NCBI GenBank assembly: GCA_949152475.1
Contig: OX424561.1
Location: 30,312,481-30,376,480, forward strand
Direction of reading: 5' to 3'
Length of the DNA stretch: 64,000 nt
Origin: Terebella lapidaria
Lineage: Eukaryota > Annelida > Polychaeta > Terebellida > Terebellidae
Shown here: one piece after another, positions 44,901-57,395 of the stretch
How the letters are laid out: each line of letters starts with the position of its first letter
Position numbering within the stretch: position 1 is the first letter of the stretch
Notes under the pieces: model-generated
Told to the model about the DNA's origin: nothing
The model's database searches: none
What the model saw: the letters and a program-made list of their open reading frames with translations, nothing else
Program-made: the position numbers and the translations under genes

Positions 44901-45556
44901 CGTGAAAAAAACGTTATTTACGCAAAACAAACGTTGTTTATGTGGAAAAAACGTTACTTACACGTAAATAACTTTATTACGCATAAAATACTTTATTTAC
45001 GCAGAAATAACATTATTTACGCGGAAATAACGTTGTTTCTTCACAAGTTGTGTCAATTATGAACATGTCAAGATTACTCCGAAAAATACATAATAAGTTT
45101 TTTCTCTCAGTGTCACTTATCAGCCACTGTACTCATGGTTTCATTCTCGTCTAAAATCGTCTGATAATCTGCTTGCAAATTGGCGCGGAATAGTGATACG
45201 AGAAAGTTTGTCGATAGGAGATTCTCAAGTTGCGGCTGTCGTTATATATAATTGCATGAACATGATAACTGTTTGAAATGGTTTGGAAATTCGTAATTTA
45301 ATTCCGCAATCCTTTATTTGCACAGCTACCAGGGAAAATCCGAACGGAGAGTGGCCGGCCTGGGGAAGTAGTAATTAAGGTTGCAAATGAAGAAAATGCA
45401 AAACTGGTCGTCATTGGATCACGCGGGCTCAGTCGGTTACAACGAACCATGTCAGGGAGTGTTAGTGACTATGTGTTGCACCACGCGAATTGTGCAGTAA
45501 TCATTTGCAAACAGAATGACGACGAAAGGAGCAAGGAAAAAGTGAAACAACCGTGA
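41980..45556 (+). CDS. Universal stress protein, four exons
   Basis: Exons 41,980-42,040, 43,852-43,932, 44,269-44,363 and 45,326-45,556 join in phase to 155 aa, all with GT-AG borders. The start VVLIAIDAS is the first beta strand of the USP fold. WYMSHIHKDGNAMVILHCVD continues it in exon 2. Exon 4 has the nucleotide-binding loop VVIGSRGLSRLQRTMSGSVS, matching G-x2-G-x9-G-S (G110, G113, G123, S124). The length is usual for single-domain animal USPs, which are small cytosolic ATP-binding proteins tied to stress tolerance; the exact role is unknown. The ATG at 41,980 gives the family's normal N-terminus. The C-terminal tail is short and charged. Intron 1 holds a 1-kb DNA element and intron 3 a 0.7-kb one. 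The gene looks intact. Confidence 0.92.
42631..43630. mobile_element. 1-kb DNA transposon in USP intron 1
   Basis: Begins CAGAGGCGGATCCAGGAATT and ends AATCCGCTACTG. CGGTAACAG lies at 42,625-42,633 and 43,631-43,639, giving a duplication of at least CGGTAA. Inside are about five degenerate units built on GGGTCTGGGGCCCGCTGAAG (about 42,680, 42,830, 42,985, 43,155, 43,375). Ends of the CAG-GCGGATCCAGG type are widespread in invertebrate DNA transposons. There is no transposase frame. G- and C-runs near 43,577-43,613 lie next to the right end. Confidence 0.8.
44421..45129. mobile_element. TA-flanked element full of AACGTTATTTACGC motifs, in USP intron 3
   Basis: Inverted ends CAGTGCCTGATAAGTGACA and TGTCACTTATCAGCCACTG, flanked by TA on both sides. 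The interior (about 44,505-45,040) is packed with alternating forward and reverse copies of a motif near AACGTTATTTACGCG. Two longer related spacers contain CCAAATACTGCCTNCACGTG (about 44,650 and 44,815). It has no coding capacity. TA duplication and size fit a Tc1/mariner-type MITE, but the interior is unusual. Confidence 0.75.
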
Positions 45557-45859: not shown

Positions 45860-46022
45860 GACGTTTATAGATAACATTCTCGAGCACTTTAGATATTAAA
45901 GGAGGACTTCCTATCAATGTGTATTGGCTTCGACCAATAATTTTACGGTTAAAACTTCCATATAGCCATAGACCTCGAACCCATGGACCGCCAACTTTGA
46001 ATCTCGCGCCTTCATCTTGCGT

Positions 46023-46061
46023 CGCGCATGCGCGAGTAGGAAGAGGGGCAACTCACTTCCG
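46023..46061 (+). promoter_or_regulatory. NRF1-like and ETS-like sites upstream of the transposase gene
   Basis: CGCGCATGCGCG at 46,023-46,034 fits the NRF1 palindrome, and CACTTCCG at 46,054-46,061 fits an ETS site. Both are common in TATA-less, broadly active animal promoters. The transposase ATG is about 400 bp further on; an untranslated exon may lie between. Motif matches only. Confidence 0.35.
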
Positions 46062-46456
46062 TTTTATTTTGTTGCCGTTTGCACTTTTTGCGTCGAAGTT
46101 GTGATTTCGTCTAGTTTCCAGGTAGGATATATACATGCAGTGACTTGTGAATTCCGTTAGATCATGAATATTAAACAGCTGGTGGATAAACTTGAATTTT
46201 CTATCGAAAACACCGGTGCCGGCTCAGCTGTGATCTCACTGTCTCTGGCTCTGCCTCGCCCTCGAGTCCCGTCACGACGAGTGTCCATGCGAGTGTCAGG
46301 CAGATGCCACACTGATCTGAGCTATATCTAGTCAAACTCGAACATTCAGAGCGGCTCACATTCAGCTGATGATCTGTGAGGCAAAATCCTGTGTGCTATA
46401 CAGTGTACTAAACAAAATATGACCGATACTTTTGACAGCTCACCTGGAACTGGAAG

Positions 46457-49400
46457 ATGACGGGTGGAAAGTTTTGTTGCATGGTAGGATGCAGTGCATC
46501 TCAAGCCAGATGCCGAGGCCTATCTTTTCACCGTTTACCGAGCAAGGGTAAGTTATTATTGGTCAAATGCTACATAGATCTATGTCACTAGCTGTTTAAT
46601 AGCAACATGAATACTAGTAACACGATTAAAGTATACCACTTCTTATATGGATGCTAAACTTGTGTACATACATTTTGAAATTCATTTGGTATCAGGTAGG
46701 GATACTGCATATTTGAAAATGTAATCGTTTCGTATTCATTTCCAGAGAAGTCGAATGACTGGTTGGCAAAGATGGTAACGAAAATTTCCAGATGCGACAA
46801 AGGATTCAACCCAAGTACCGCATACATTTGCTCTCGTCACTTCGAAGATTCTTGCTTCTTAACTAGTGAGTACATCAGTATATTTCTAATGTATTCTAAA
46901 AATGAATGTACACAATACAGTAGCACCTCTCTCAAAATGAACCAGGCATGACCAAGGATAAATTAACAAACTGCAATGATACTGATGAAACGGTTTTACA
47001 GAAATGTGGTACATATTTGATCTGCACTGTGGAGCTTAACATTGTATAACTTGTGTACTCTTAAGTATGTTTGTAGTATGATAATGTGATGATTTCGATA
47101 GAGTGAGTGAAGGTTCACTTTTATCATGTTTATACATCAAATGGGGTCTACCCTATATTCCGACACCCCGTTGTTCCGACACCCCGTTGTTCCGACACCC
47201 CAATGTTCCGCTTCCGACACCCCACCGTCAGTGTTAACATCATAAAATACCACCACAAATTTGTCAGTAGATCCGATACGTCACGTAGTCTCATGCGTAA
47301 AATTTATCCAGTACTAGTACTTACTTCCTGGTTTCAGACCCAGTGGATATCATTATATGAGCTTCCTTGCTTATTAGGTGTAAAAAATATGTTGGGTGTC
47401 GGAACAGTGGTGTGTCATCATAGTGTTTTAATACAGTTAGGGGATAATAGGTGTGGGAACAACTTGTTTTAATACAGTTAGGGGATAATGGGTTATGGAA
47501 ACAATGCTTTGATATGTAGTTAGGGGATAATGGGTGTCGGAACAGTGCTTTAATACAGTTGGGGATAATGGGTTATGGAACAGTGCTTTGATACAGTTAG
47601 GGGATAATGGGTGTCGGAACAGTGCTTTAATACAGTCAGGTAGCTGCGAGAAATATGGAATTCCGGGTAGAATCAATTATAAGCAATTATATATAAATAT
47701 GTGATCAACTGACTTGCGGAACATTGGGTGTCGGAACAGTGGGGTGTCAGGACACTGGGGTGTCGGAACAATGTCATTATCCCCATGAAACCAGTTTGGG
47801 AGGGTATTGGCATGTGAATGTCAGTCAGGATTGAAAGTTGGTTTCTTTTCATTTGAGCATGGTTAGTGCTGTAAGTATGAACATCTTTGAGCACACATTT
47901 CATTGCTGTAAATTCATCGACAACTCACCAGAGCCAAGTGGACGTAGACAACTGGTGGAGGGGAGTCTGCCCACAAAAAAATATGCCTGAGAAATCAATA
48001 AACACGCCAAAGACAAAACCTAGAAAAGCCCCAGTGAGATAGTATAGAATAGTTGTTGTAAAACTGTTGTGTTACTCGTTTATTATGTTGTTTATTATAT
48101 TTCCTGTGATCCAATATATATAATTGTTCTCAGTTTGTTTGTTTGAATTTTATATTTGTTTCGACCAGTCTTACTGAGTCTTTGTCAATAACAGTGAATT
48201 CACGGATTACTGTGAATCACAGTCACTGTACATGTCATGCTAATGCTGTCTCCTAAATCTGATGCCCTTACATCCTGTGAGTATCTCAGGCTTGGAAAAT
48301 CAGGTTAACGGACCTATGGTCTGATAACCTATTGGCGACCGTTTTCGTCGAAAAACGCTCTTTTTCTAACGTTGTCGGCCATTTTCTCAAAAACTGATTT
48401 CCTTTTAAAAAGATTCCTCTTATGTACCTTTGTGAAGTGTATAAGCTTTTTTGCCCTTGTAACGCTGATCTCCGTGTGGCGGCCATTTTGAATTTTCACG
48501 GGTCAGCAAAACAAATATTTTTTTGCCCCAAATCGCATTACTATTTTGGGCCATTTCTGGAACAAAACAATTTTTCACCCTTTGAAAAAAAAATTGGACT
48601 TTGAAAATTTTCGGTACTTTTTTCCTTCATAATGGGAGCTGTCGGAACTGTACTCATAGAACGCTTGAAGATGGAGCTTAGAAATTGGCACTTTCAAATG
48701 GGAAGTCATATATGGCAACTTGTGTGGTGACCTCGAATTTGACCTTTGATGACCTTGAAAGGTCTAAATAGTCAGTTTTGGGTCAAAATATGCCCAAATT
48801 TGCTTCTACTGACATAGTTATTGCACATAGAGCTTATGTTTGCATTATTAGTGTATAGGGAGTCCTATATGTGTAACTTGGCCGCTAGGGTTTAAACGCT
48901 TGTACCTGGAGGTTAGGATCATATTGTCAGCTTATAAGAAGTCATATATATATGTTACATCTATTGGTGACCGTGAACTTGACCTTAGACGACCTTGAAG
49001 GCTAAATCTCAAAGTCTAACCTGAAATGTGTACATGTAAATTTTGGCCTCTACAGACAAAATACTTTTTACTAGGACTGATATGTTTGTATTTATGAAAA
49101 TATAGAAAGTTCTATGCTGCACACCTTATGGTAACATTGAAGTCCACAAATATGACCTTGGTTGGTAAATCTCAAGATCATCTGTTACCTGCAATGTTTG
49201 AAACCAAAACTGTCCGGTAACCTATCTTAGTCCTTGTTTATATTGCTCTCAAACGGTCGCTGAGAGCTAAGTTTGTGTTGGACACTTAGAATTGACATGT
49301 ATAATCTGTCAAGTGATGATCTTGAACAAGTGAACGAAGTGGACCACATACTGTAAAGCCCTTTAATTTTGTGGACATTAATGTTCGCGTTTTTGCAAGT

Positions 49401-52400
49401 TGGACATTTTCGTGGACATTTAAGTTCGCGCTTTTGGGATGCTAGTAGATTGTAATACATATAGTGTTCTTGGACTTAATTTGTTCGCAGACATTTATTT
49501 TCGCTTTTTTTGCCAAACCGTGAAATAAGCGAACTTAAATGTCCGTGAATAATTTGCTTTACAGTACTTGTATTTGAATGTGGTTGTGACATAACCTGAC
49601 CAGCAACTGTTTATATGTTAGCGTAAAGCAGCAGCAATGCCAGTTTGGTGACTCACAAACTATCACTGACTCGTCAATTAATTTTTTCTTTGCAGATTGA
49701 TCGTCAAATGCCCTCAAATGTTAGCGATGTGTCAGACGAGCCCGGCGAGGAAACTTCTCCACAACCCTGCACGGGGATTGTCGATTCCGAACTTCAAAAA
49801 TATGCGTCCCTCCCACCACCACCAGGAAAAAGTGATACAAGTACATGCAAATACTATCTTCATGTCGAGTACAACAGACACAATGACCGGATGACATCAA
49901 CTTCAACTGTTCGTGCCCATGCCTGTGAACAGACTGTCAGTGCCAAGGATGCTGGAAATCTATGTAAAGCCTGTAGAGAGTGCAAACGTCTTCTTCTAAT
50001 GAAGCACCTGCGTCACACGATGGCGGACAGAAGTGAACTCAAGCAGAACACTCCCTTGTCTCGAGTCTCAAAAGCAAGGGTTGCCAATGCTTTAAAGCTG
50101 ACCCGTCTGGAGAAACGGCATGTCGAGCAACAGCTGATCAAGATCCGTGCCAAGCTTCGAGAGGAACACGTGGAAGTGTCTGACAGTGCTCATGAACGGC
50201 TTTCCAGCATCATGGACAGTTGTGAGAAGGATTCCTTCGTACAGATGTTCTGGGATGAGCAAAAGAAAGCATTTGAGCGAAAGGCAGGTGGGATGCGTTG
50301 GCACCCCATGATGGTGCGCTTTGCCATCATGCTTCATAGCCAGAGTCCTTCAGCATATCGCTCCATGCGCCAGGTGGGAGTCATCAAACTGCCTTCAGAG
50401 TCCACACTCCGGGACTACACCAACGTTTTGCATTCACAGTCTGGTTTCCAAATCGAAGTGTTTCAGGAACTGAAAAGAATGACCGAATCCCTCGAAGATC
50501 ATGAACGCTGGGTGTGTCTCCTCCATGACGAAATAACAATCAAATCTGATCTGGTCTACGATCGCCGTAACGGTGACCTGGTCGGTTTTGTGGACAAATC
50601 GCAGTGGAAAGACAAAGAGAGTTCAAATCTGGCAACTCACGCCCTCGTTTTCATGATTGTTGGTGTGACAACGAATATCAAGATGAGCATTGGCTACTTT
50701 CCCACACGTACGGCAACAGCGGATGAGATGTTTCCCCATTTCTGGCGAGCTGTGGGCTTAGTAGAATGTGTGTCAAACCTCAAGGTAAGCATTCTTCAGT
50801 TATTACATTTTTGATTATTTTTATGCAGTGAATGTGTCAGAGCCCTAAAGTGTCACTACATTATGTGCATTTCAGGTGATTGCTTCTACTAGCGACAAGT
50901 CTAGTCCGAATCAGCGCCTGATTCGCCTGCATGGACATGCTCACAAGACACCAAACCTGTTTGCTCCTGGGAGAGACATCTATTTCTTCAGCGATGCCCC
51001 CACCTCATCAAAACCGTGCGCAACAACATGTCCAGCTCCGGATTCGGGAAGAACACCAGGCAGCTATGGGTATGTTTTGCAACAAATTAGTATCGCAGGC
51101 CCTAAACTGTCAGTTGATGTAAAATATATAATATGGTCCATTTTTCATGAAACATTTATATCGCTTCCAATTCGTAGAATGATGGCAAGGAGATTCTGTG
51201 GTCACACATTGCTCGTCTCTTCCAAGAGGATTCTGTGCGAGAGCTCCGTCGTACAAAGCTGACTGCAGAACACATATATCTGACACCCCAGTCTGTGAGG
51301 AGAGTTTATCTTGCTGCACAGGTAGGCTAAAAATTGTCAAATTTAGACACCATGTAGTCAGCCATGGGTAGCAATACATTATACATGTACCGGGGTACCT
51401 TAGAATCGTGACATAGATGAAAAATGATGATTCTCATTCTCAAAACTTACTTTGTGAATCGGTCTGATGTGTATATTCTATGTTTTATTTCACAAATCTT
51501 CTAGGTCTTGTATCTTGATATAATTGTAGGATTGTATTGTGAATTTATTCCAAGGCCACTCGGTAAATGGACAGAACCTAATTCCATTGTTTCATTCAGC
51601 CATGCTTGTTGCCCCTTACATGAATATCTACTTGTTTATAGGTTCTTAGCCATTCCGTGGGTTCAGTCATGGAAACGTTTGGACCACAAGATTCCAAAGA
51701 AACGGCGAAGTTCATCCTGTTAATGGACAAATTCTTTGATTGTCTGAATACCCGGTAAATAGCACCTGCACCTCGTACACACACTAAATATCTAGTGTTT
51801 CAATAAACTAATGTGTCAGAGATACTAGGGAGATGCTGATATATATTAATCACCAACAGATCACCAACAGAAGGAATCAAGAAAAACAACAGATACTTGG
51901 CACCCTACACTAGCGTTGAGGATGACAGATTCAGGGTAACTAAATATTTAAGATTGGAACCCTTTGACATTAGATACTAGTTCGTCGTTAATTTATATGT
52001 GAATACTTGATGTTTTACTGTGTTCATTTTTTCTATGCAGTTCCTGAGGGATGATTTCTTGGCATACATTGAGAAATGGCGAGAATCGACACGAAAGAGG
52101 AAGGACTACACTTTGGCTCAGAAAAAAAAGATGTTCCTCAGCGATCAGACATATGAGGGTCTGAAAACCACAGGTTAAAACTCACATGTAGTATTTCTCA
52201 ACTACATAAATTTTCATAATAATGATCATGTACATACATGGCGAGTCATATCTCCCAAACACTGAGAGTAGACCACAACAAATCAGCTGCCAGATGCAAA
52301 CACAGGCCGAAATCAGTGGTATTCTTTTGTGCGTGTTTTCAGTGAATTCAGTTATCGAGGCAACCCAATTCCTTCTGCGGAATGGGGTGAAGATGATCTT

Positions 52401-52813
52401 GACCCATCGATTTAACCAAGACCCACTCGAAGAACATTTCGGACGTCACAGATGTCTCAGTGTTCGAGCAGAAAACCCCACTTTGTGGAGTTATGGGTAT
52501 GTGTAAAATGTGTGAAGTGCGGGAGCACAAAAGAATTATTATCAGCCACATAAAGAGGATTTTATGAGCAGTATATGTAAAATGATGTAAATATATTTTC
52601 AGCTACCAAGAAAACAAGTTGCGGATGTTACGATCTGTGGCATTGTCGATAACCCCTAGAGGAAACATCCGGAGTAAGCGAGCACATAATGAAGTCACAG
52701 TTGACGATACTCCACTGCCTAAAGTTAGACGTCTGAAGGTACACAATCTTATACAGAATGTAACTCATCATCCTAGACGAACATGCCTAGGGACTATTAG
52801 AGATGACCTATGA
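46457..52813 (+). CDS. THAP-domain P-element-type transposase, 11 exons, two frame disruptions
   Basis: Exons 46,457-46,547; 46,746-46,865; 47,932-48,033; 49,696-50,784; 50,876-51,069; 51,178-51,321; 51,642-51,754; 51,860-51,935; 52,041-52,173; 52,343-52,496; 52,604-52,813; about 808 aa. The THAP zinc finger spans exons 1-3 (C8, C12, C59, H62, W36). Exon 4 gives a basic, possibly coiled region, then the RNase H-like core (GMRWHPMMVRFAIMLHSQSP, LLHDEITIKSDLVYD near residue 382). Exon 5 has SSPNQRLIRLH and RDIYFFSDAP. Exon 10 has RFNQDPLEEHFGRHR. All are as in P and THAP9 proteins. Exon 3 needs one A fewer in its A-run (about 47,984) and exon 5 one base more in the C-run after FFSDAP (about 50,996) to keep phase. 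The last 24 codons enter repeat sequence, so the true end may differ. Confidence 0.88.
47155..47785. repeat. Minisatellite-bearing element in transposase intron 2
   Basis: CCGACACCCC is repeated at 47,160-47,223 and in reverse at about 47,720-47,775, like inverted ends. Between them (about 47,430-47,640) are about five units of roughly 40 bp containing ACAGTTAGGGGATAATGGGT. There is no frame of interest. Probably a small non-autonomous element; exact ends are not clear. Confidence 0.5.
48302..49237 (+). mobile_element. Third Helentron/HINE-like element, in transposase intron 3
   Basis: Begins AGGTTAACGGACCTATGGTC and ends GTCCGGTAACCTATCTTAGT. The interior carries GACCTTGA/GACCTTTGA motifs but no regular 133-bp array, so it is a different subfamily from 10,660-12,581. 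The orientation matches the transposase gene. Splice sites of the host intron are not touched. Confidence 0.6.
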
Positions 52814-53275
52814 CCTTGACATCAAATTTTTTGGTGAGTCGCCATTTATCGATTCCGTCGATATTTGGAAACAGTGCAACAAGAGCAAAATGGACCCTAT
52901 TTTCAGACTCGTCGCTCTAGACAAACTTGTTCAAGGGGCATCATGGATGAACTTTGACCTTGCCCTGAAATTTTTCTGCCGTGTCAGCATTTTTGTTTTC
53001 ATCAATATCTCAGGAACAGTTCGTCCTAGAGCAAAATAGACCTTATTATCGGAATCTTCGCCCTAGACAAAAATGTCTGAGGGAACTATTATGGATGAAC
53101 TTTGACCTTGACATAAACATTTTCTGTCATGTCAGCTTTTTTTGGACAAACTTGCCTAAGGGGACTATTATGGATCAACTTTGACCTTGACATAAAAATT
53201 TTCGTGTCAGCTTTTTTTGTTCTCATCTATATTCTTGAAACGAGGTATCGTAGAGCCGGGGGCACACATGTTGCA
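52790..53275. repeat. Tandem repeat of about 120-135 bp between the two convergent genes
   Basis: Three to four degenerate units, each with GACCTTGACAT, then GTCAGC, a T-run, and CTAGACAAACTTG or its variants. The same unit recurs at about 54,230-54,850, on the other side of the last exon of the minus-strand gene. Both tracts end in GTAGAGCC(G/T)GGGGCA followed by an ACATGTT-type end. The transposase stop codon at 52,811-52,813 lies inside the first unit. Confidence 0.6.
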
Positions 53276-53291
53276 AAACATGTTGAAGCAG

Positions 53292-53297
53292 TTTATT
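53292..53297 (-). terminator. Poly(A) signal of the minus-strand gene
   Basis: AATAAA on the - strand, about 20 bases after the stop codon at 53,316-53,318. Confidence 0.6.
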
Positions 53298-53315
53298 CAT
53301 GATTACAGATACATT

Positions 53316-56300
53316 TCATTTAGCTAGCTTGCTTCTCAGAGACTTCTCTTTCTTGAAATCTTGTTTCTTACTCTTCACTTTCTCTACAATACATTTACAT
53401 TTCTGATGTACTCTGACTTTAAAATACAGAGATATGATGTCTGTCAGAACAATTTCTTTGACTAATGTTTCAAATCTGTCTGTGGCACTGTGATAACAAT
53501 CTTGTATGACATCACTTGCCAAACATTCGCGGTTGAAAAGAGTTTTAGACACATTTGTAACAGAATTTGGAAATGAAGTGCGAAATATAGTTTCCAGTTC
53601 TGCAAAAAGAGATTGTCCATCCTTTGAGAGGTTTATTAGCTTCCCTCTAGACTTGGCAGCCACAAGAGTGTCTGTTTGAGGTTCCTCCTCACTTTCCAAC
53701 GCAGTGAATATCTCTCTGTATGTGTCATCTTTATTTCTCTGCTTTAACTTGCAGCAGACGAAGCCTCCAATGTAGTGGGCCACATCCAACTCGGCTTCAG
53801 AGATGGGTGATGTTGAAACTACAGCAGGGCTGGTGGTGGCTTTACAGAATCCTGAAAAGATGTTGGTGCACACCCACATGGTCAGCTGATGGTTGCCAGA
53901 CAGTGCTGTAAGTCCTGGGACTCCCCCTCCCATCAACTTGATGAACGCTGTCTGTGATGCTTCTCGGTTGACCCCCCTCAGCTTTGATGCCATGACAACA
54001 CAACTTTGCAACTGCTGATGCAGGAGTATGCTAAATTGTGATACTGTAAACAAATAAAACATGAGCGTTCATTTACACATTATAGTGTCTTTATAGAGGG
54101 GAAGTCTTGATGAATACGTATTATTGGAGGGGACCACTGTAATAGTCATTAATCCAGTGTGTGCTCACACATAATTAAGGCATTTCGGGAGAAATGGTTT
54201 TAGCAGAATTTTTTTTCTTCTTCCGCCATTTTGGTTTCCTGACGATAACTTTAGATTGCCTTGATGGATCCTTGTCCAATTTTGACCACTATTCAGAAAT
54301 GATATTGGGAAGAATCCTATTGTTTTTGAGCCGGGTCCGAGGTCCATGAGGATGAAATCAAGGCTGATTTTGAGACTGGGTTTCTGGACGATAACTCAGA
54401 AAACATTCAGGCAATGGTTGCATATTCCACCAGGGAAGAACCCTATTGATTTTGGGATCAATCCGTAAAACAACCTTTGACCTAGATGTCAAATAATTTT
54501 TTGCTGCTCCATCCTTGAGGCTTACTGCATATCTCGAAAATGGGACGTCGTAGAGAGAAACGGACTTTATTTTCGGACTCGTTGTATTAGACAAACATGC
54601 CTAGGGGGTATTAGGGATGACCTTTGACCTGAACCTTGAATTTTTTCACTGAGTCGGCATTTTTTTCCTTTTTCGTCGATATCTCGGAAACAGTGCATCG
54701 TAGAGCAAAACGGACTTTATTTTCGGACTCATTGTACTAGACAAACTTGCCTAATGGATATTAGGGATGATCTAGTTTGACCTTAGTCGGTATTTTTCGG
54801 TTTTATCGATATTTTGGAAATGGGGTTTCGTAGAGCCTGGGGCAAACATGTTATAAATATTATAAATTAGCCTTAAAACATAAATGCCTCCAAGGCATCT
54901 TTGGGCCTTGACGTCTAGTTGGTTATGGGTATTGTCACACATTGCGTACATGTACTCGAAATGTTGTTTATAACGAGCCTTGCCGATCATATTGATGTTT
55001 GCATTAGTGGTAAAAGAGATAGCCACATACACTAAGATGTAAAATTACTGAATAAAGGTGACTGACTGCATTCTATTTGTCACAAAAATTGTATTAAAAT
55101 GTATATGCATGTATTGATTGTATTCCTAATGTGTATGAATCTATGGGCATGATGGAATTTGTGTGAATGTAGGAAAATGTCAGGAATTAGAAATAATGTT
55201 AAAACACTATTCATGATATTGACTGAATGAACTTTATTCAAGAACATACTGATTTCATGTTGTTTTGCTGAAAAATATGAAGTGAATCACCTTTGCTTGA
55301 GCAACTGGCCATGTCCTTAGCAGCATCACTAAAACAGAAGTCCTGTGTACATATTTGATCGAGGAGTTCCCTCACATGTTCTTCACATTCAGCTGTCTGC
55401 AAGAGAACAAGTTTAGTAAACTAATCTTAAAACATTCAAGAGATGTATTATTCGAGAATGTTTCATAACTTTTTGAATAAATATATACACTCACAGTTAT
55501 GGTCTTTGTGATAGATGCACTCTTAAACACTTGGTTCTCCACTTCCTCCTCATGATCCAACTCATCGAAATCCAATTCCTAAATGAGTAAAAACCAACAA
55601 TACAATCTCGATAGATACATGTATACACGATAGCATTACTATGCAGTGCTATTCTTGCATTCTGTTCTGGTGTTTGGTTGAGACGTGAATATTGAGATTG
55701 AGGGCTCGCTGGTGGACAATATCACATATGAGTATGAGTTAACACACGATAAGATCTCCAGGCTATCAGGCCGAATATTACCATGCCCTAATGTCTTGAC
55801 ACTGGCCATTCACCTCTTAACCTACAGATTGATCATTCGCAATGGCGGCCTGATCACTTTGGCGGCTTTATCACCTGCACCCCATGGCTAGGATTGGTTA
55901 GATGAGAGTTATTAAATGCCTGTAGGGCCCAAGTATCATATCCTGCGCTTTCCTCTATATTCAATAAGGATTAAAAAGGTGCTAGACGGATTAAATGGTA
56001 TGCTTTCAGTGGACGAGTAGTATTAAGGCGCAGCGTATGATACTTGGGCCGAATGTAGTACACCTATCAGGACGGGGGGGATTGGTGGTAATACACTAGG
56101 GTGTCAGGCTTGCTGTACATGCAAGTTAATTTTGAAAAAAAAAAATAGATTTTTAAACATCATCGAAATAGATTTACTCCGTTTTGAATTGTCAGATCAG
56201 ATCAATTGTTAACTGTTTCCATTTGGCATTAAACAATATTTTTCATCGAAGTCAACACTTCCTATCTTCAGAACAGAAAAAAAATTGGCTATCTATTATC

Positions 56301-56540
56301 GTACGTCTAGAAAATACATACTATACTATACTACATCTACGTACGTATTGACTAGCACGAAATAGGCCTAGGTGAGGCCATCAGATGTAGCATCGTGGGC
56401 GTATTGAACTATCATATGGGGTCGTGAGGACAACATGGTAACATCACAACAGGTAGATATCGCATAATGTGGTTGTGATCATTCGAAACAGTACAATTCA
56501 TTCCCATTGAACTCACCCATACAAATTCCAGATCACTCAT
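53316..56540 (-). CDS. Second gene of the P-type element, unrecognised 313-aa protein
   Basis: Exons on -: 56,540-56,517 (MSDLEFVW), 55,578-55,495, 55,396-55,291 and 54,043-53,316. All borders are GT-AG, phases agree, and the joined frame is open for 313 codons. The N-terminus is acidic (DFDELDHEEEVE). Next comes a short Cys-containing segment (ECEEHVRELLDQICTQDFC). The last exon has MWVCTNIFSGFCKATT, AHYIGGFVCCKLKQRN and a basic Lys-rich tail (KSKKQDFKKEKSLRSKLAK). The YIGGFV...KL stretch faintly recalls the region after the core in P/THAP9 proteins, but no family is assigned. The gene faces the transposase gene, with about 500 bp between stop codons. A partner factor, a repressor or a detached C-terminal module are all possible. 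Intron 3 contains the 54,230-54,850 repeat. Confidence 0.7.
54230..54850. repeat. Second tract of the 120-135-bp repeat, in intron 3 of the minus-strand gene
   Basis: Degenerate units like those at 52,790-53,275, with GATATCTCGGAAACAGTGCA and TTAGACAAACATGCCTAGGG. This repeat family seems to have inserted twice around the last exon, or once before a rearrangement. Confidence 0.55.
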
Positions 56541-56612
56541 GGCACAATATAAAAACTGTGCGAACACTTGAATCGGGCAGAATTCTGTCAAATTTTGACG
56601 TCCAGTGACCAA

Positions 56613-56621
56613 ACCGGAAGT
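56613..56621 (-). promoter_or_regulatory. ETS-like site before the minus-strand gene
   Basis: ACCGGAAGT, a strong ETS match, about 75 bp upstream of the ATG at 56,540. Two full CRE palindromes TGACGTCA lie further upstream, at 56,918-56,925 and 57,016-57,023. Motif matches only. Confidence 0.4.
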
Positions 56622-57253
56622 AAACAACCCCTCCTCTCGCAAAGTCTCGCTGCACGCAAGTTCTCATACAGTGGTAAATGTACGAAACTTCAGAGTTGGC
56701 GGTCCATGGGTTCGATGTCTATGATATAGCAAATATATCTCAATGCATTTGAACGGAGAAGACTTTAAGCTTCGTTCACATATGGAATATGTATATATTT
56801 GTTCAGTACAAACAAATCGTACTGAGGATATAACATCAAAAACACCGAAAATCTGCAAGTTTTTTCCACTCGGCAGTGCATGGCTGACAGAAACGTCATA
56901 CATGACGTAAATTTCTGTGACGTCATTGTTTCGATAGAAGCCTCGACAGGCGGCTCATTTCACTGGAACCAAAGATGCTGGAAGTGATTCGTTGCCCGAG
57001 GCATCATCAAAACAATGACGTCATCGTTTTGACTCATTCATTCTCCCCAGTTGGAGGGCGGGGCCCGCTACTTTAGTTTTTTTTCGATTTTACATTCGAT
57101 AGTAGTTTTAAAAATATGATCTCTTCGATTTTGAATCATCTGAATGAATACTCCGTGTGCGTGAACTCATATGTTACCGAATTGAGTTTGAATTTGATAG
57201 GAAGTCCTCCTTTAAAGGTAATAGGGATATTGGTGGATAATTAGAGAAGTGAG

Positions 57254-57395
57254 TTATTATAGGTAATTGATTGGATACAGTGTTTGAGGCCCTCGGTCGT
57301 GTCTGGGCCGTTGCACGCACGAGCTTGCGAGTGCATCCGCGGCACAGACACGACCGAGGGCCTCAAACACTGTATCCAGTCGATTAACTTATTAT
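57254..57395. repeat. Long perfect hairpin
   Basis: A 34-base arm at 57,272-57,305 (starting TGGATACAGTGTTTGAGG) is the exact reverse complement of 57,345-57,378. The loop is 39 bases and GC-rich. Flanking bases extend the pairing imperfectly by about 12 more. It lies about 40 bp outside the right end of the P-type element. Between it and 57,676 a further pair of short inverted ends (ATTATTATATGCC / GGCATATAATAAT) may mark a small MITE. Confidence 0.8.

Follow-up and report, generated by a model that had tools for sequence, protein, structure and literature searches.

What is a second gene doing inside a transposon of the P superfamily? The question is raised by a 64,000-nt stretch of the Terebella lapidaria genome (GCA_949152475.1, contig OX424561.1, positions 30,312,481-30,376,480 of the forward strand; this whole stretch is the window, and its own numbering is used below), in which a transposase gene on the + strand and another gene on the - strand run tail to tail between inverted ends. 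A sequence-only reading of the window had placed the structure at 45896-57215 and proposed that the second gene is moved by the same element, perhaps as a partner or repressor of the transposase, with a captured gene, of host origin or taken from another element, as the alternative. Our analysis indicates that the window holds a two-gene P-superfamily transposon with a split transposase, in which the + strand gene encodes the catalytic core and the - strand gene the C-terminal domain (CTD), and that the two proteins most likely come together after translation as a single transposase; we put the probability of this reading at roughly 0.78. The suggestion of a partner was thus right in kind, the gene being by our assignment the transposase's own CTD, and a repressor is the less likely of the two roles; the same assignment speaks against capture.

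One element moves both genes. The P-type transposon occupies positions 45967-56723 (10,757 bp), with 35-bp terminal inverted repeats at 45967-46001 (+ strand) and 56689-56723 (- strand) that were located by inverted-repeat and genome end searches and are complementary at 33/35 bases; the window copy has a target-site duplication of 7 bp. A search of the 761.6-Mb genome with 30 positions of this end, allowing at most three mismatches, gave 14 sites per strand, or 28 in total, against 0 for a control pattern, which excludes chance. The 28 sites make up 14 inward-facing pairs, one of them nested in another, and every pair (14/14) encloses a core transposase exon and a - strand gene exon on opposite strands. 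Target duplications were present in all 13 pairs for which both flanks were read, exact 8-bp duplications in nine and exact 7-bp duplications in four, so that the terminal inverted repeats and 8-bp duplication of the P superfamily are found here in a 7-8 bp form, and the proposal that the second gene travels with the element is borne out. The copies fall into a subfamily A (four, the window copy included) and a subfamily B. Five B copies, 8,830 bp each, share at least 99.96% identity from end to end and have differing target duplications, which points to recent transposition of the two genes as a unit; decay is evident in at least one B copy, C6, whose core exon contains stops. The subfamily-B element at C13:28786749-28804416 contains another full B element as a nested insertion. 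Co-mobility extends to two deep families, C and D (roughly 25-28% CTD identity to the window), in which both genes lie inside ends that begin CATAGACATTTAGCCCAGGGACTGCCGACT and CATGGACATAAAAGAGAGGGACCGCTAGCT, resemble the ends of the window element in sequence, and are flanked by an exact 7-bp duplication in 3/4 copies (flanks read by eye).

The second gene has four exons and its own ATG, encodes 313 amino acids in the window, and does lie tail to tail with the transposase gene, as first described. Its exons, all on the - strand, are exon 1 (56517-56540; 24 nt with the ATG, and 24 nt in subfamily B too), exon 2 (55495-55578), exon 3 (55291-55396; ECEEHVRELL...FCFSDAAK) and exon 4 (53316-54043), which encodes a helical region followed by the putative P-transposase CTD, with the motif YIGGFV, and a basic C-terminal end. 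Some 150 residues precede the CTD. The window protein has no Pfam match above cut-off, and a Pfam naming of the - strand product as COMMD1_N, at chance-level E values of 0.08 and 0.07, was superseded by profile and fold comparisons. A profile of 19 members of this protein family (the window plus 18 of 20 fetched loci; L034 and L035, very like L033, were omitted), searched against 177,635 PDB sequences, returned two matches at E of 10 or less, the better of which was 6p5a_B, the CTD chain of the Drosophila P transposase, at a whole-sequence E of 0.011. An AlphaFold2 model of the protein is helical, with a mean predicted local distance difference test score (pLDDT) of 84.9 and a predicted template modelling (TM) score of 0.63; the long basic C-terminal stretch is predicted as a helix of falling confidence. 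Foldseek, run with this model against 350,542 PDB chains, again ranked 6p5a_B first (probability 1.00, target TM score 0.69, 25% identity), the second rank having a probability of 0.21. The same genome also holds fused P-type transposases (L049, L050 and others), in which a homologous stretch follows RNase H in the single frame. A profile of these fused CTDs (L050 plus 16 of 19 fetched loci; the near-copies L076, L078 and L082 were omitted) matches 6p5a_B at E 3.2e-5, and hhalign aligns the split and fused profiles over 134 columns with a probability of 97.9 and E of 4.1e-13; the columns common to both include YI.G, K, GL, E..FR and R.H. Fold prediction backed by profiles thus identifies the - strand gene as a predicted P-transposase CTD, i.e. 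the CTD fold expected of the superfamily appears to be present here as the product of a second gene.

If the CTD is encoded separately, where does the core end? The + strand gene has 11 exons, as the sequence-only reading held, with GT-AG borders that were read and lengths that were measured, and the same 11 exons recur in subfamily B; window coordinates are element coordinates plus 45966. Exon 1 (46457-46547, with the ATG; exon mapping), exon 2 (46746-46865; exon mapping and Pfam) and exon 3 (47932-48033, with one base more in a homopolymer than three sister copies have) encode the successive parts of the THAP domain. Exon 4 (49696-50784; Pfam and alignment) encodes the helix-turn-helix (HTH) and the first part of RNase H with the first catalytic D, and exon 5 (50876-51069, one base shorter in a homopolymer than in three sisters) the second catalytic D; exons 6 (51178-51321) and 7 (51642-51754) are assigned to the GTP-binding insertion domain by comparison with a B copy, exons 8 (51860-51935) and 9 (52041-52173) follow, exon 10 (52343-52496) encodes the last part of RNase H with the catalytic E (QDPLEEHFG), and exon 11 (52603-52738) a conserved tail, YQENKLR...PLPKVRRLK. 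The exon phases fit if exons 3 and 5 take their sister-copy lengths. Window exon 2 scores just over the cut-off for THAP (PF05485, 5e-5) and exon 4 reaches 27.4 bits for the HTH (PF12017, cut-off 23). The B copy C14b, in which both genes are open, has a 788-aa core that passes the Pfam cut-offs for THAP (PF05485, E 1.3e-8), RNaseH_N (PF21787) and the GTP-binding domain (PF21788, E 1e-16); the THAP, HTH, RNase H with DDE and GTP-binding insertion of the P superfamily are thus all found. Counterparts of D230, D303 and E531 are matched in the B core by our count, the stretch around the first D scoring low when taken alone.

By alignment, the two genes appear to match one chain each of the Drosophila entry 6P5A, with the break lying by the linker: the alignment of the B core with the 569-residue 6p5a_A extends to residue 563, the core ending 41 residues after it, and the core frame in families C and D stops directly after the conserved tail YQENQLRLQRSLAFSFNPKGN...SPLKKIKR. 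This linker is flexible and disordered in the Drosophila P transposase (PMC7776569; here and below, a PMC number refers to the available part of a paper's text). In the window the frame of exon 11 is open to a TGA ending at 52813, or else the AAG/GT at 52738 serves as a donor; a CTD is absent behind exon 11 on the + strand, and in the other copies read through (C14b and families C and D) none was found downstream on the strand of the core. Split cores of families A to D share a tail of about 45 residues after RNase H (YQENxLRLQR..A.S..PKGN..) with a basic end, which is a candidate docking site for the CTD protein.

The split layout is widespread in this genome. Since a PF12596 profile search of the whole genome found two places only, CTDs were counted with protein queries: all 148 of 148 candidates were scored for the split-CTD query and the best 150 of 170 for the fused-CTD query. 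Core-protein searches, which scored the best 112 of 560 candidates (122 matches) and the best 150 of 496 (150 matches), merged into 212 loci; as genome searches score the best candidates only, these loci are a sample. When each was paired with the nearest CTD match of either query within 8 kb, the CTD lay downstream on the same strand at 82 loci (the fused layout), downstream on the opposite strand at 75, and in no other relation at any. A second count, with a 15-kb limit and the window's two proteins as the only queries, gave 103 core loci, 78 of them with a convergent CTD, 0 with another orientation and 25 with none; among the loci of at least 100 bits, 70/78 had a convergent CTD, and the worry that other copies of the transposase might consistently lack the second gene is not realized. 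Conversely, 44 of 120 merged CTD loci were not the nearest partner of any core within 15 kb; one of them, C13:28802050, is part of a nested element whose core is present, and a convergent core was found at all four of the other seemingly lone loci that were read further.

The two domains are also co-inherited. In a CTD tree of 20 split rows (the 19 alignment rows and one B copy) and 20 fused rows (all 19 fetched loci and L050), one branch separates the layouts with a support of 100/100; a tree of RNaseH_N, comprising 13 of 15 split rows (L099 and L100 were too short) and 20 fused rows, has the same separation at 100/100, its bootstrap not having settled, and both trees are unrooted and built from rows collected by similarity to one or the other layout, a sampling that favours separation. 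Distances among the cores of eight split families correlate with those among their CTDs (Mantel r 0.876, p 0.0009), indicating that the two domains travel together; in two of the eight the CTD was taken from another copy, L051 being paired with L038 (99.7% identical copies) and L098 with L046 (presumed to be the same family from like matches, without an alignment check). Core exon 4 differs between subfamilies A and B at 85% of its synonymous sites and at 24% of the remaining sites; the corresponding figures for CTD exon 4 are 78% and 29%. Synonymous change is saturated at this distance, so that no ratio of nonsynonymous to synonymous change (dN/dS) is claimed there, and saturated synonymous change beside low change elsewhere indicates that both genes have long been constrained. 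Within subfamilies the counts are small: in the three A pairs without sister copy C16 the core has a dN/dS of 0.15-0.20 and the CTD one of 0.31-0.33, and two B pairs have values of 0.14 and 0.32 in the core, with 0.63 and 0.41 in the CTD.

Several observations weigh against a split transposase at work in these elements. All copies counted come from one genome, that of T. lapidaria. As assembled, the window core gene is shifted in frame by the one-base homopolymer differences in exons 3 and 5, at odds with 3/3 sister copies, and the shifts are possibly true decay or an assembly error; the window copy, with an open CTD gene and a frame-shifted core, lacks the intact genes of an autonomous element. 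Two sisters have irregularities of their own, exon 4 being one base short in C16, where the core match is split over two frames, and exon 5 measuring 202 bases in C14a with the anchors used; pairs with C16 give dN/dS values of 1.03 and 1.17, i.e. about 1 for both genes. The open B core falls below the Pfam cut-offs for the HTH (PF12017, 21.8 against 23 bits) and for RNaseH_C (15.3 against 24). On the CTD side, the single aligned stretch behind the 6p5a_B profile match has an i-Evalue of 5.2 when taken alone; scans of the 19 single members at E of 1 or less found Tnp_P_element_C in three and THAP9_C in one, with a best E of 0.0026, and matched neither in the window protein; the Foldseek E for 6p5a_B is 0.024, with none below 0.001; and the last 30 residues of the AlphaFold2 model have a pLDDT of 49-68. 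No CTD match was found within 8 kb of 55 of the 212 sampled core loci, which may be decayed, truncated or of a further lineage, nor within 15 kb of 8/78 core loci of at least 100 bits, and a clean duplication was not seen at one of the four C/D copies (C1:20.0M).

The main rival, which we regard as unlikely, is that the separate CTD protein is a regulator, e.g. a competitor that limits transposition, and that the core works without a CTD. Known P elements make a shorter, 66-kDa repressor by splicing (PMC7776569), and the residues ahead of the CTD could serve regulation. A core working alone is harder to square with the Drosophila complex, in which the CTD touches both transposon and target DNA (PMC7776569), with the lack of a same-strand CTD behind the cores that were read through, and with a layout that never varies where a CTD is assigned while both genes are constrained.

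Trans-splicing of the opposite transcripts, which would join the two parts as RNA, seems improbable to us. It would make sense of the point at which the likeness of A and B cores stops, the AAG/GT that could be a phase-0 donor, and of CTD exon 2, which starts in phase 0; yet the C and D cores reach an in-frame stop codon immediately behind their conserved tail, and CTD exon 1 begins with an ATG in all of A, B, C and D, which favours two proteins that meet after translation.

That the second gene is an unrelated one, captured from the host or another element, is very improbable. The lack of a Pfam match above cut-off for the window protein would fit a capture; fold and profiles instead match the transposase's own CTD, the CTD is convergent at 78/103 core loci with no other orientation, and a convergent core stands near each of the four seemingly lone CTD genes that were read, so that capture of a host gene in its simple form was rejected.

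There is next to no chance that the 11.3-kb structure with 22-bp ends is the transposon itself: the inverted pair at 45896-45917 and 57194-57215 is perfect, with TTAA at both outer termini, yet this end has 571 genome matches (271 on the + strand and 300 on the - strand, at most one mismatch), the P-type ends with their 14 pairs and 7-8 bp duplications lie inside the 22-bp pair, and uninterrupted copies run across the junction elsewhere. Among the matches listed, 14/20 inward pairs of the 22-bp end less than 2 kb apart span 528-577 bp, and the outer element, with TTAA at both ends, inverted ends, short length and many copies, is a TTAA miniature inverted-repeat transposable element (MITE). The span first given for the transposon was accordingly right to within half a kilobase, and the ends assigned to it belong to the target MITE. 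The 10,757-bp P-type element jumped into this MITE of about 556 bp, because excising it and keeping one ATATAGC restores a MITE of 556 bp and because the junction is uninterrupted elsewhere; when the best 40 of 456 candidates for the 181-bp junction were scored, 36/42 listed matches were full-length at 97-99% identity, 4/42 were short by 1-5 bases at one end and 2/42 were short. The left arm of the MITE (45896-45966, 71 bp) holds the 22-bp end 45896-45917, and the right arm (56724-57215, 492 bp) holds the end 57194-57215, both placed by end matches and the junction search; ATATAGC abuts the inner inverted pair on both sides, its left copy (45960-45966) corresponding to the single one of uninterrupted MITEs and its right copy (56724-56730) identified by flank reading.

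Further features of the window lie in or beside these elements. Core intron 2 contains, at 47158-47768, inverted arms of 43 nt and direct repeats of about 40 bp with GGTGTCGGAACA, and looks like an insertion. Units of about 145-150 bp are repeated between the two genes (52763-53277) and in CTD intron 3 (54520-54857). A 50-nt inverted repeat at 57261-57389 (92% complementary, 29 nt between the arms) adjoins the right end of the MITE, and upstream of the MITE an exon-like frame at 45302-45556 (GKIRTESGRPGEVVIKVANEENAKLVVIGSRGLSRLQR) may resemble a universal stress protein. THAP genes or elements are abundant in the genome at large, where 150 places were scored from 624 candidates and those listed are over the Pfam cut-off.

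How, then, would a split transposase work? The + strand product, with its THAP zinc finger, HTH, RNase H DDE domain and GTP-binding insertion, would bind the ends and cut; the CTD, supplied in trans, would hold transposon and target DNA, as it does in the Drosophila strand-transfer complex. The core ends near the point at which P transposases run through the linker into the CTD. We infer that core and CTD assemble physically and that the CTD is needed. A single rearrangement, in which the CTD exons were inverted behind the core, probably founded the clade, the whole unit having presumably jumped since. Sequence comparison suggests, with trees that are unrooted, that the split layout is derived from the fused one, since Drosophila P is fused and a fused core, the single one compared, scores 135 bits with 6p5a_A where the split core scores 63. 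It is rather probable, in our estimate, that a large and old P clade has an obligate two-subunit transposase, in which the core tail and the N-terminal part of the CTD protein dock and transcripts from opposite ends control activity.

GTP-dependent transposition and a 17-nt staggered cut are traits of the P superfamily. Like the Drosophila P transposase (DmTNP, 6P5A), the element described here has THAP, HTH, RNase H with the counterparts of its catalytic residues, a GTP-binding insertion, a predicted CTD fold and inverted repeats, with target duplications of 7 or 8 bp where those of Drosophila P are about 8 bp; the difference is that Drosophila P has a single protein with the CTD at its end, whereas in this element the CTD has a gene of its own on the opposite strand. 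THAP9 and zebrafish Pdre2 have the same order of core domains, and the Pdre2 end also begins CATA (PMC10983969), but they carry the CTD in the same protein, with 13-bp inverted ends and 8-bp duplications (PMC7776569, PMC10983969). The available text of both papers likewise describes P transposases as single proteins with a CTD (PMC7776569, PMC10983969). The fused transposases of the T. lapidaria genome itself differ in the same respect, combining a homologous core with a CTD on the same strand. One gene for the whole transposase is a trait of the described members and not part of the catalytic definition, and the element, with its CTD on the opposite strand, is a variant of the P superfamily. 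We rate this split two-gene layout as new, as the sequence-only reading had anticipated: no two-gene P element was found in the open-licence literature covered by titles and the beginnings of abstracts, a coverage that does not extend to subscription journals or Repbase reports.

Other superfamilies have two-gene elements. MuDR makes two proteins, mudrA and mudrB, from one DNA transposon. PIF and Pong, of PIF/Harbinger, have two frames per element as far as the available part of the source describes them. The second proteins of MuDR and PIF/Harbinger differ from the one described here. A similar layout occurs in RAG-like transposons, in which RAG1L and RAG2L are likewise two convergent, tail-to-tail genes between the same ends (PMC7204232). 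These differ in having other proteins and 5-bp duplications; in the elements studied here neither a RAG1L core nor a 5-bp duplication is found, the core being of P type and the duplications 7-8 bp. RAG2L is not known to be a detached domain of RAG1L.

For the superfamily, a natural split near the disordered linker would show that the CTD is a true module, and it would make the core and the CTD available as separate proteins for biochemical work; the near-identical copies, one of which was read with both genes open, suggest that the system is testable. The element would also join RAG1L-RAG2L as a two-subunit cut-and-paste transposase made from convergent genes, one in which it is known where the second subunit came from.

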